From contig NZ_CVUA01000001.1 of assembly GCF_001282785.1 (NCBI RefSeq), positions 496,001 through 560,000 of the forward strand: a stretch of 64,000 bases of DNA. The letters run 5' to 3'. The stretch comes from Halolamina sediminis (GTDB lineage Archaea > Halobacteriota > Halobacteria > Halobacteriales > Haloferacaceae). Both the position numbers and the translations under genes were made by a program. This document shows positions 38,568 to 43,079 of this stretch, in pieces (within the stretch, counting starts at the first letter, position 1; each line of letters begins with the position of its first letter). The notes beneath the pieces were generated by a model. The model worked only from the letters and a program-made list of their open reading frames with translations. It ran no database searches and was not told the DNA's origin.

Positions 38568-39041
38568 ATGGTTTCTCCCGGCGACTCCGCACCAGTGTTC
38601 TCAGCGACGAACGGCACGAGCGACCACGAGGATTTCGACCTCGACGACCACCTCGGCGACGGGCCGGTCGTGCTCGCCTTTTTCCCCGGCGCGTTCACGC
38701 CGCCCTGCACCAACGAGATGGTCGCGCTGCAGGAACGCCTCGGCGAGTTCGAGGCCGCCGGGGCGACGGTGTTCGGGGTTAGCGCCGACTCGCCGTTCTC
38801 TCAGGGGGCGTTCCGGGAGGAGCACGGCATCGAGTTCGACCTCGTGAGCGACATGGCCGGCGAGGCGATCCGGGCGTACGGGCTGGAGATGGACATCCCC
38901 GATCTCGGCCTGTTCGACATCGCGAACCGCGCGGTGTTCGTGCTCGACGACGGGGGGACGGTGACGTACTCCTGGGTCGCCGACGATCCGACGAACGAAC
39001 CCGACTACGAGGCCGTGATCGCGGCCGTCGAGGACGCGTAG
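38568..39041 (+). CDS. Peroxiredoxin (AhpC/Bcp-like, 1-Cys)
   Basis: 157 residues of thioredoxin fold. The peroxidatic cysteine is C47 in FPGAFTPPCTNEM; no other cysteine exists, so it is a 1-Cys peroxiredoxin needing an external reductant. It reduces hydrogen and organic peroxides. ATG 38568 gives MVSPGDSAPVF, the normal start. Immediately downstream, on the opposite strand, lies the remnant of an azf-like gene. Confidence 0.9.
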   Translation: MVSPGDSAPVFSATNGTSDHEDFDLDDHLGDGPVVLAFFPGAFTPPCTNEMVALQERLGEFEAAGATVFGVSADSPFSQGAFREEHGIEFDLVSDMAGEAIRAYGLEMDIPDLGLFDIANRAVFVLDDGGTVTYSWVADDPTNEPDYEAVIAAVEDA

Positions 39042-39165
39042 CTACTCGGTGTCGTCCTTCGGCTCCCTTTCGAACGTGAACTCCGCGGAGTTGTCCACGG
39101 GCTCGTAGCCGAGCACCTCTTTGGTGCGCTTAAGCCAGTAGTACTTTCGCGTGAAGTCATACACA
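39042..39165 (-). pseudogene. 3' remnant of an azf-like epimerase/dehydrogenase gene
   Basis: Read on the minus strand this encodes a C-terminus (RKYYWLKRTKEVLGYEPVD, then NSAEFTFEREPKDDTE and stop) matching the last ~37 residues of the intact protein at 42282-43079 (RKYYSLERAKAVLGYEPVD, NSAAYTFDGEP...). Similarity stops at about 39165, where the sequence turns A/T-rich. DNA similarity is high but not exact (roughly three quarters by eye), so it is not a fresh duplication. It directly abuts the peroxiredoxin stop, as an intact convergent gene would. Confidence 0.85.
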
Positions 39166-39328
39166 GTGAAATATCGGTGTGCTAGTACTACTGAATCAGT
39201 ATGGTTAAAAAAACTGTGTCGAATCAGCCGGTAAGTGGGATTGCGAATCTATCGACAATCTATCTTCGCGAACAAGGATGGCTCCCATCGATTAATGGAC
39301 TAGTACTGGGAACAAGGAAGCGGATAGA
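39166..39328. other. A/T-rich left edge of the island, no gene
   Basis: Composition drops sharply from neighbouring DNA. The short plus-strand ORF beginning near 39201 runs antisense into the glycosyltransferase gene and shows no recognisable motif. No inverted repeat or tRNA is visible at the edge. Confidence 0.6.
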
Positions 39329-40825
39329 TCAATCGTCGAACCCTTTACGGGTCATCTCTCCCCACTCAGTGTTACCGCGGATGAACTTCGGAATTCCTGT
39401 GAACTTTATCAAGGTGCGTATTTGTCGATAACCAATATTCTCGAGAACGCCAAGAGCCATCAGCTGAGCTATTTGGGTGACTTTTCGATATCTTCGGAAC
39501 GTCCACACTTCTGCGTAGGTCGCGTACCAAGACAGGAATATCCCGAACCCGCTGGTAACCAAAAAGAATAGGACGAACGGGGCAGGTTTGAACAAGCCAA
39601 GAACGACAGCAATTGGTAACACGAGATAGCCTACCGACTCTACCAGTGGGCCGATGACTTCCGCGATAAGGAAATACGGGAGTGCGAACATCCCGATTCG
39701 ACCGTATCGTGGATTGAATAACATCTGGCGGTGAGTAATCAAGTTCTCGATTAGCCCGTTGTACCAGCGACGTCGCTGAGCCATAAGCACCGACCACCGT
39801 TCTGGAACCTCTGTCCAAGCAACTGGAGCAGGAACGAAAGAAATTGTGTACTCTTCACCTGCATCAATCATATGTTTATGCAAACGGATAACTAAATCTA
39901 GGTCCTCTGTAAGTGTGTCCGTTCGATACCCACCTATATCTTGAACTATATCGGTCCGAAAAACTCCAAATGCACCGGAGAGAATAATCAACAATCCTAG
40001 CGAATCGAGGCCCGCTCGACCCGAGTAAAAGGCCCGGAGATACTCAAGTACTTGAATTCCTGGTAGATATTTATTGGGAAATTCTGGGGTAGATATGTCG
40101 CCATCTTCAACTCGATTACCATTCGCCACACGAACCGTTCCGCCGGCTGCGATAACCGATTTCTTCTCACGAATAAAGGGCTTGACTACCTCATTGAGTC
40201 CGGAACGGTCAAGAATTGTATCTGCGTCGATAGTACAGAAGAGTTCCTGCTCAGTAAACCAAACTCCGGCGTTGACTGCATCACTACGACCACCATTTTC
40301 TTTGTCGATAACGTAGAGACTTGGATGCGCTGACGATCGGTACACCTGTTTCACTGGTTCAGTAGGGAAGTCGATTGGACACGGAGCAGCGACAGATCGT
40401 AAATCAAAGGTTTCAATCAATACATCAAGCGTGGCATCGTCGGACCCATCGTTAATTACGATCGTCTCATTGTCTTGGTACTCAAGGTTGATCGACGATC
40501 GAACGGAGTCAACGATGACTTGCTCTTCATTATATGCGGGAATAATAACTGCAACTCCCGGCAAAAATGGAGAATTCAACGTCTCGTACGGTGGATCCCA
40601 TTCAGCAAGACGGAACTCCGTCTGTAATTTTGGGAGTGCGACCGTATGAATGGTGAGGTACAGCACATTGATTAATATATAAAGTAAGATCGCAAACCAG
40701 CCGAACATCTGAATCATCCCAGCAAGTGCTTCCTCGAAAAAAAGTTGTACGAGGGGCACAAAATCAACGGAGGAACTCGTAATCAAGATAATAGGGTTGC
40801 TTTCCATCATTATCTGTATTATCAT
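39329..40825 (-). CDS. Membrane processive glycosyltransferase, family 2 (polysaccharide-synthase-like)
   Basis: 498 residues. One or two N-terminal helices, then a cytosolic GT2 domain with PGVAVIIPAYNEEQVIVDSV, TIVINDGSDDAT, TIDADTILDRSGL (DxD), TLTEDLDLVIRLHKH (ED base) and QRRRWYNG (the QxxRW acceptor motif), then four C-terminal helices. This is the architecture of PgaC, hyaluronan and cellulose-type synthases, so it likely makes and exports a surface polysaccharide. The preferred ATG (40825) shares one base with the upstream stop (TGATG). Codon use is markedly less GC-rich than the chromosome. Confidence 0.88.
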   Translation of the reverse strand: MIIQIMMESNPIILITSSSVDFVPLVQLFFEEALAGMIQMFGWFAILLYILINVLYLTIHTVALPKLQTEFRLAEWDPPYETLNSPFLPGVAVIIPAYNEEQVIVDSVRSSINLEYQDNETIVINDGSDDATLDVLIETFDLRSVAAPCPIDFPTEPVKQVYRSSAHPSLYVIDKENGGRSDAVNAGVWFTEQELFCTIDADTILDRSGLNEVVKPFIREKKSVIAAGGTVRVANGNRVEDGDISTPEFPNKYLPGIQVLEYLRAFYSGRAGLDSLGLLIILSGAFGVFRTDIVQDIGGYRTDTLTEDLDLVIRLHKHMIDAGEEYTISFVPAPVAWTEVPERWSVLMAQRRRWYNGLIENLITHRQMLFNPRYGRIGMFALPYFLIAEVIGPLVESVGYLVLPIAVVLGLFKPAPFVLFFLVTSGFGIFLSWYATYAEVWTFRRYRKVTQIAQLMALGVLENIGYRQIRTLIKFTGIPKFIRGNTEWGEMTRKGFDD

Positions 40826-41991
40826 CAATCTGTCTCTGTCGTGCTCAATTCATTGCTCGCAGGAATTCGATTTAGTTCTTTTTTCCAAACCCAGGATCTC
40901 TTGGCCTCTACTGAGAGGGACCTTTGAGGTCGGTGGTTGTGATAAAGCAAAGTATCAATGATTGCTTGCCGAACGCGTTCACTTGGTTCATTATTGAGCC
41001 GAACTTCAAGACGTGTAAGCTCAAATTCACCCCCCCAGTCGCAAATCGTTCTTGCTGCAGCTAGTCGAACACGCTTATTTTCATCTTCTACTGCCATCAA
41101 AAGACTATCTAAGACCTGATTAGAGGTTTCAGGTTCGAAACTCCGGAGTGCCATCACAGCAGCCTCACGAACTTGCGCGTTCTTCTCCTCTATCGCCATT
41201 TCCAACCACGGAGGCGGTGCGCCAATAACAACCCCCAATTCGTCAAGTTCGCTGATTACATATAGGATTTGAACAAGTTCCGTTTGACTTAGGCGGTCAG
41301 TCATCTTTGCAATTTCTGCAACGAGGAGGTTTGGTGCTCGCTGCCCAACTTCGTAAATCACCCCCATTCCTATCACCGCAAGTTCCTCCCCAGATTCATC
41401 GAATAAAAACCCGAGAGCATCGCGATAAGCGGTTTCAGTATGTACACTCATCAAAGCTTGCGCGGCTGCTCCTCGAAGAAGAGAATCTTCTTGGCATTGG
41501 GGGCAGAGCATATCGACCGATGGCGGAGAGCGAAGTAGGGTTAGGGATGTCAACCCATTGAGTCGGCTGATACGGTCACCCTCTTCAATTTGGTTCGCCG
41601 CTGTTTCCTCCAACCCAAGGTCAATGGCAAGTCGCCGTAGATGTACGGCATCACAGTCCGTTGCCTCATACAGTAGGCTACGAACGATCCTACGTGCAGA
41701 AGCTTGTTCGCGTGGGGAAAGTTTATTTATAAAAGATTCCCAGTCTCCTGGTTCCTCTCTTAATCGGTCTTGGATTAGTTCTTCTACGCGAGAGTCAACA
41801 CTATTTCTTCGTATATCTTTCAACCTTTTAATAAATGCATAGCCGAGAGTGAACACCTCTAGCAGAAGGAGGAAAAATGCTAGCCCGACAACGACCAGCA
41901 TAATCTCTATCATCGAAAAAGAAGGAATCATCTGAAAGGGAAAAAGAATCGTTTCGGGTAATAAGCTGACTCTGTCAGAAGAATGTATCAT
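40825..41991 (-). CDS. Membrane-anchored HEAT-repeat protein, partner of the glycosyltransferase
   Basis: 388 residues. One N-terminal membrane helix (MLVVVGLAFFLLLLEVFTLGY, about 31-51) is followed by a mostly helical cytosolic part with HEAT-type repeats, e.g. DSLLRGAAAQALMSVHTE, NAQVREAAVMALRSFEPE, NKRVRLAAARTICDWGGE and SERVRQAIIDTLLYHNH. A CPQC pair lies near residue 166. HEAT repeats bind other proteins; coupling to the GT2 gene suggests it regulates or scaffolds the synthase. Same low-GC composition. Start 41991 uncertain: M21 or M27 would also keep the helix. Confidence 0.8.
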   Translation of the reverse strand: MIHSSDRVSLLPETILFPFQMIPSFSMIEIMLVVVGLAFFLLLLEVFTLGYAFIKRLKDIRRNSVDSRVEELIQDRLREEPGDWESFINKLSPREQASARRIVRSLLYEATDCDAVHLRRLAIDLGLEETAANQIEEGDRISRLNGLTSLTLLRSPPSVDMLCPQCQEDSLLRGAAAQALMSVHTETAYRDALGFLFDESGEELAVIGMGVIYEVGQRAPNLLVAEIAKMTDRLSQTELVQILYVISELDELGVVIGAPPPWLEMAIEEKNAQVREAAVMALRSFEPETSNQVLDSLLMAVEDENKRVRLAAARTICDWGGEFELTRLEVRLNNEPSERVRQAIIDTLLYHNHRPQRSLSVEAKRSWVWKKELNRIPASNELSTTETD

Positions 41992-42281
41992 ATGTATACC
42001 ACTAATGAACGAGTCTGTGTATGACGCACTAACTTATGAGTATTGGGGGAGAATTTGTATGTTATAGTGTTCGTCTGTACTTATCGATTCAACGAGTGAG
42101 GTGCAGATCTATGACACTCTTTCTATCATTTAATCCCAAAGAATAGGGATCTCCGAGATCAAGCAACAGGAGAACCGACAGATGGCGACGACCCACCAAC
42201 ACTGTGTGTATGACTACGCAGAGCGGGATACAGATAGCTCCCGCTCAGAGGCATACGTCTCGAAGCTTGTTGGTGGGAAAT
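41992..42281. other. A/T-rich right edge of the island, no convincing gene
   Basis: 290 bp between the HEAT gene start and the azf-like stop. It holds the presumed island promoter (minus-strand CTCATAAGTT about 42031-42040). An ORF from ATG 42182 reads into the azf gene antisense and looks spurious. GC rises abruptly near 42280. Confidence 0.5.
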
Positions 42282-43079
42282 CTACTCCTCTGACCCTTCG
42301 TCTTCCCGGGGTTCGCCGTCGAACGTGTACGCCGCGGAGTTGTCCACGGGCTCGTAGCCGAGCACCGCCTTCGCGCGTTCGAGGGAGTAGTACTTGCGAT
42401 CGTTATCCGAGATGCCGTAGACGATCTCGTAGCCGTAGTCGGCCTCCAGACAGCGCCGGAACAGGCGGGCGCAGTCGCGGTGGGAGAGCCACATCGCCTG
42501 CCCGCGCTCGTACTCCCGCGGGGGGTGACCCTCGGTGAGGTTGCCGATCCGGACACAGACCACGTCCAGATCGGCGTGGTCGTGGTAGTAGCGCCCGAGC
42601 GTCTCGCCGCTGGCTTTCGAGACGCCGTAGAGGTTCGACGGCCGCGGGAGCTCCGTCCCGTCGAGTCGGTACTCGTCGTCGCGGCGGTACATCTCAGGCG
42701 TGCGCTCGTCGGTCTCGTAGGCGCCGACGGCGTGGTTGGAGGAGGCGAAGGCGAGCTTCTCGACGCCGGCGTCGACGGCCGCCGAGAACACGGTCTGGGC
42801 GCCGTCGATGTTGTTCGCGAGCACCGAGTCCCACGGCGCGTCCGGCCGGGGGTCGCCCGCGAGGTGGATCACCGCGCCACAGCCCGCGACGGCGTCGGCG
42901 ACGGCGTGCTCGTCGGTCACGTCCGCAACGATCGACGCCGACTCGGGGACGCCGTGGCGCCGGTCCTCGGGGACCGGTTCTCGATCGAGTAGCCGCCAGT
43001 CGTACTCGTCGGCGAGCCGCGAGAGGATCGCCTGTCCCACGCGGCCGCCGGCACCCGTCAGCAGCACCGGGTCGTCCAT
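42282..43079 (-). CDS. azf: NAD-dependent epimerase/dehydratase family, probably Azf glucose-6-phosphate dehydrogenase
   Basis: 265 residues, Rossmann-fold extended SDR. Motifs: VLLTGAGGRVGQAIL (NAD site), VIHLAGDPRP, YGVSKASGETLGRYY (catalytic YxxxK) and the late block VYGISDNDRKYYSLERAKAV. The sequence fits my memory of haloarchaeal Azf, an NAD+-dependent glucose-6-phosphate dehydrogenase opening the oxidative pentose phosphate pathway. A sugar epimerase is the alternative. Its last ~37 codons are duplicated at 39042-39165 across the AT-rich island. ATG 43079 gives MDDPVLLTGAGG. Confidence 0.78.
   Translation of the reverse strand: MDDPVLLTGAGGRVGQAILSRLADEYDWRLLDREPVPEDRRHGVPESASIVADVTDEHAVADAVAGCGAVIHLAGDPRPDAPWDSVLANNIDGAQTVFSAAVDAGVEKLAFASSNHAVGAYETDERTPEMYRRDDEYRLDGTELPRPSNLYGVSKASGETLGRYYHDHADLDVVCVRIGNLTEGHPPREYERGQAMWLSHRDCARLFRRCLEADYGYEIVYGISDNDRKYYSLERAKAVLGYEPVDNSAAYTFDGEPREDEGSEE

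Follow-up and report, generated by a model that had tools for sequence, protein, structure and literature searches.

An AT-rich island of Halolamina sediminis as a very probable integrase-less member of a haloarchaeal integrative-element family attached at the azf 3′ end

SNJ2-type haloarchaeal integrases, those of SNJ2-like viruses, HHPV4, Halfgib1 and their relatives, combine a SAM-like domain with the domain PF00589 (PMC8371274), and the known members use the 3′ ends of tRNA genes (PMC8371274; PMC7911831). An attachment site within a coding gene is that of virus BJ1, which lies in the gene for HMG-CoA reductase (PMC8371274); the section of that paper on coding-gene sites makes no mention of azf, the gene for the NAD-dependent glucose-6-phosphate dehydrogenase. 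Among the ICE and IME of bacteria, the elements termed CIMEs (cis-mobilizable elements) keep both attL and attR and have no integration genes (PMC5704250).

Here we analysed a stretch of 64,000 nucleotides from Halolamina sediminis (the window), in which a small AT-rich island lies next to azf. We consider it very probable that this island is an integrated, integrase-less element belonging to a haloarchaeal family of integrative elements that attach at the azf 3′ end, because the azf repeat occurs at one recurrent site, the terminal sequence is shared and related elements carry recombinase genes. The recombinases of these relatives have the same domain make-up as the SNJ2-type integrases and are 39–45% identical, over about 95% of their length, to those enzymes and others from pleolipoviruses and related haloviruses; they differ in that the target is a protein-coding gene and not a tRNA. 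The azf elements share with BJ1 an att site inside a coding gene, although the gene is a different one. Like a CIME, the window island has both attL and attR while genes for integration and transfer are absent; unlike a CIME, it is archaeal, belongs to a set of elements with one or two cargo genes, and ends in a private motif that suggests a lineage rather than a one-off decay. Targeting of gene 3′ ends with restoration of the gene, and CIMEs themselves, are already known principles, and what appears to be new is azf as a site, the clade of recombinases found there and the integrase-less cassettes with their private end; a literature search, mostly of papers outside subscription, returned no report of azf as an integration site. 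Such a recurrent non-tRNA site in haloarchaea, identified together with a recombinase clade and terminal sequences, makes mobility directly testable, and it would explain one class of AT-rich islands, small and seemingly acquired without a mobile element.

The window comes from a single Halolamina contig of 2.84 Mb, and its azf is 90–93% identical to other Halolamina azf genes. An initial annotation had reported a sharp GC drop at about 39165–42280, the same azf 3′ end in the same orientation on both sides, degenerate on the left and intact on the right, and no integrase, transposase or tRNA edge. All of this holds: GC is 0.464 between 39165 and 42234 (46–47%) against 0.692 in the remainder of the window; the two azf ends, at 39051–39149 and 42300–42398, form an ungapped direct repeat of 99 nt with 80% identity and a spacing of 3249; and the island shows neither an integrase, an integrase relic, a transposase nor a tRNA edge, and gave no match in the Rfam search. 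The repeat is far above chance, as no direct-repeat pair in the 10 kb scanned is longer and other genomes have the same arrangement. Counted from one copy of AAGTACTAC to the other, the island measures 3,249 bp. These two 9-bp copies, located by a motif count in the window, lie on the minus strand at 39138–39146, a candidate region of strand exchange, and at 42387–42395, inside the intact azf; the sequence is also present in the other azf elements compared, in some with one mismatch. To the left stands a gene for an AhpC/TSA peroxiredoxin (prx; 38568–39041, plus strand; Pfam PF00578), and to the right the intact azf (42282–43079, minus strand), whose product scores 477.9 bits against the Azf equivalog NCBIfam NF041293, where the cut-off is 400. 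Two genes lie between them, both on the azf strand; one encodes a HEAT-repeat protein, the other a membrane glycosyltransferase of family GT2.

Alignment with island-free relatives, the check that the initial annotation had suggested, identifies the native end. In Halolamina rubra, H. pelagica and H. salifodinae (L002–L004) azf and prx converge with no island between them, and azf is joined directly to prx, its native left neighbour. The left azf copy in the window (39042–39149, minus strand), on the attR side of the element, comprises the last ~36 codons in azf orientation, reads RKYYWLKRTKEVLGYEPVDNSAEFTFEREPKDDTE followed by a stop in frame, and shows the same junction with prx (GAGTAGCTACGC...) as these three species. 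That junction shows the remnant to be the original azf end; the one presently on azf would have come with the island, in agreement with the earlier proposal that an incoming segment carried an azf 3′ end of its own and left the old one as a scar. The ~85-bp terminal sequence of the element described below is absent from five other Halolamina genomes. In the remnant, positions that hardly vary among haloarchaeal Azf proteins carry other residues, SIERAK has become WLKRTK, and its identity to relatives that are 0.94 identical to each other is 0.845; it has drifted, as expected of a released fragment, and because it is degraded the insertion appears not to be recent. Separate trees of the two ends had also been proposed; 84 nt are too few for this, and nearest-neighbour identity, used in their place, puts both ends nearest to Halolamina, the remnant being closest to H. 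rubra and H. pelagica (0.845 for both) and the intact end to H. pelagica (0.929). That the intact end is Halolamina-like, so that a foreign origin is not visible in it, counts against our reading.

A tyrosine recombinase gene (PF00589) adjoins the displaced azf end in six other genomes (G129, G140, G162, G298, G301 and G302). It is interrupted in G140, where the locus (L148:2973–5030) shows it split by an insert of about 1 kb that includes a transposase-like fragment. The five intact azf recombinases, all encoded beside an azf 3′ end, are at least 70% identical and form one clade (99/96), whose next relatives are about 55% identical. For the sister clade at this level of identity (L172–L174, from G323, G109 and G157), neither azf nor a tRNA was found within 1.5 kb, and ARAGORN predicted few tRNAs near its integrases. 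At a locus of Haloferacaceae archaeon XH8 (L023:8883–16777) the arm described below is followed by genes resembling those for a replication protein and a tail tape measure protein; this element is a probable provirus at azf, and its far end lies beyond the sequence read. We found neither the azf-clade recombinase nor the arm in free form among IMG/VR viral contigs, plasmids and phages, which counts against our reading. Plasmid matches to azf were at most 67% identical and lay in genes annotated as oxidoreductases, and we read them as paralogues.

The integrase-bearing and integrase-less elements have in common some 85 bp right after the azf stop, which we call the arm; in the window it occupies 42135–42218 on the minus strand. 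A profile built from eight other elements, with the window left out, gave one match in the window, at this position (E = 8.6e-14), and over all fetched loci it matched element-type loci only. When 292 genomes were searched with a model that includes the window and the other training sequences, the ten best matches all lay at azf; four of them (G175, G159, G024 and G121) are not part of the model. Below the top ten, the G267 match is at azf; those in G060 (E = 9.6e-6), G231 and G079 lie elsewhere, as does a further G129 match, and these weaker matches away from azf count against our reading. A reading of the arm as a conserved small open reading frame (MATTHRHAVYDYE...) was discarded, since G140 and G298 interrupt this frame with stops, and as a known RNA the arm had no match in Rfam. 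At the other end of the island, alignment of element ends identified the motif TGTATGACTTCACGCGA (39147–39163, minus strand), common to five integrase-less azf elements; in the form TGTATGACTTCACRCGA or a close variant it is found in the window, G372, G327 and G175, and partly in G259. A search of 391 haloarchaeal genomes for GACTTCACRCGA with at most one mismatch returned four matches, all at azf. Moreover, TGTATGACT occurs exactly twice in the 64-kb window, once at each island end and in inverted orientation, at 39155–39163 and at 42207–42215 (plus strand).

Both features by which we recognise a member of the azf-element family are thus present in the island, namely the azf repeat with an intact azf and a displaced end, and the terminal arm. 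An azf-clade recombinase, the feature of an autonomous member, is absent from the window element, and the island is a non-autonomous or decayed member. We propose that a circular element carrying an azf 3′ end would recombine site-specifically with the chromosomal azf, a tyrosine recombinase integrating it at about codons 214–226, around AAGTACTAC. The host 5′ part of azf would be joined to the 3′ end of the element, so that the gene stays whole, and the original 3′ end would be displaced to the far side, where it would decay. In other members the recombinase is encoded beside this displaced end. The window member has both ends and the HEAT/GT2 operon but no recombinase gene; the enzyme would have been supplied from elsewhere, or its own would have been lost. 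We infer the steps of integration, including the action of the recombinase, the exact crossover and mobility in trans, from the anatomy of the loci and the known chemistry of tyrosine recombinases. An azf 3′ end that is exchanged in this way should be left out of phylogenies.

Our reading takes two forms, which differ in where the recombinase would have come from. According to the first, to which we give very nearly an even chance, the island is one of a lineage of cassettes that carry cargo, are non-autonomous and would be moved in trans by the azf recombinases of other elements. The five elements with the private end motif measure 0.5–3.2 kb, come from different families, each carry different cargo and have no recombinase, and they share the arm with the integrase-bearing elements, none of which, out of six, has the motif (Fisher p = 0.002, relatedness uncorrected). 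This common private end suggests mobilisation in trans but does not prove it, and it slightly favours insertion in trans over loss of the element's own enzyme. Against this form stand the small number of cases, only five, and the fact that an azf-clade helper recombinase was not found in the genomes of those hosts; the genome of the window host has only distant members of the recombinase family (best E = 2.3e-88). The broader proposal that one- and two-gene cassettes without integrase cross haloarchaeal families by means of recombinases acting in trans on the azf 3′ end, each arrival rewriting the end of azf, a gene of central metabolism, is tentative, and we place it a little below an even chance. 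The second form, a decayed autonomous element whose own azf-type recombinase was later deleted, as in a strict bacterial CIME, is a serious possibility, somewhat less probable than the first. CIMEs are defined by such a loss (PMC5704250), N-terminal relics of the recombinase in G349 and G219 show that it occurs at azf, and the degraded remnant speaks for an insertion that is not recent. Against this form stand the end motif, shared by elements of different families and absent from the integrase-bearing ones, and the lack of any integrase relic in the window; the latter, like the lack of the integrase itself and of close relatives of the azf recombinases in the host genome, also counts against the family reading as a whole.

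How often the azf 3′ end is duplicated was assessed with a 39-aa probe from the Azf C-terminus, run against the 391 genomes and followed by re-inspection of those with extra matches. Of the 391, 22 genomes from many genera have an additional azf 3′ end, which lies on the strand of the first at a distance of roughly 200 bp up to 23 kb (in G302 the copies lie on different contigs). In every copy the duplicated part begins at residue 2–6 of the probe and residue 1 is crossed by none; aligned homology stops near GGCATCTCCGACAACGACCGCAAGTACTAC, and the short tandem forms run about 24 bp beyond. The breakpoints of all 22 genomes are confined to about a dozen codons with none farther upstream, in a test that is one-sided, as it excludes upstream breakpoints while shorter copies would escape the probe. 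Random or homology-driven crossovers are expected to scatter across the ~800 bp of azf, and this clustering contradicts the view that homologous recombination with an incoming azf 3′ end, by single crossover or gene replacement, produced the island with no site-specific recombinase. Haloarchaea recombine readily, the two azf ends are homologous and the island has no integrase, all of which would suit such an event; with the conserved terminal sequence and the integrase-bearing relatives at the same site also against it, we regard it as very unlikely. The initial annotation had favoured recombination at azf without a mobile element: that an azf 3′ end was brought in and the old one displaced stands, but the absence of a mobile element finds no support, as the insertion point, the flanking duplication and the terminal sequence are common to elements that encode integrases and to one provirus-like element. 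Least credible of all is that the azf 3′ end was duplicated locally in tandem and that unrelated DNA was inserted later between the copies, for although short tandem ends exist in the genera g26 and g39, with three copies in G064, it leaves the arm, the end motif and the recombinases beside the displaced end unexplained.

These short tandem ends of g26 and g39, which have no arm, count against our reading as well, and they may have a different history. At five loci (L162–L166; G064, G117, G097, G029 and G320) the tandem ends follow azf directly, some 210–225 bp apart, with a GC-rich palindrome (GCGAGCGAAGCGAGC...) within the repeat and with no arm, and the copies look far more alike within one genome than between genomes. 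Azf proteins of Halorubrum loci (for example L013 and L026) are extended at the C-terminus by a long tail that ends in PAEPNFP...DA or TPTDGA and that we did not see in the majority of other genera.

Finally, the cargo of the window island may make a surface polysaccharide, judging from its predicted products. The glycosyltransferase (39329–40828, minus strand; Pfam PF13641) has the motifs DADT, TED and QRRRW, which correspond to the DxD, TED and QxxRW typical of processive GT2 synthases such as PgaC/IcaA and cellulose synthase. It differs from PgaC/IcaA in having a HEAT-protein partner and in scoring 117.4 bits against that equivalog, below the cut-off of 422.3, a resemblance at the level of the GT2 superfamily only. 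Its operon partner (40825–41991, minus strand; Pfam PF13646) is a HEAT-repeat protein with an N-terminal hydrophobic segment. Relatives of the latter occur in 57 of the 391 genomes, and the GT2 gene adjoins the HEAT gene in all 29 loci read (L118–L146), with glycosyltransferase identities of 49–56% and DNA of 55–71% GC; the operon is conserved across haloarchaeal families.
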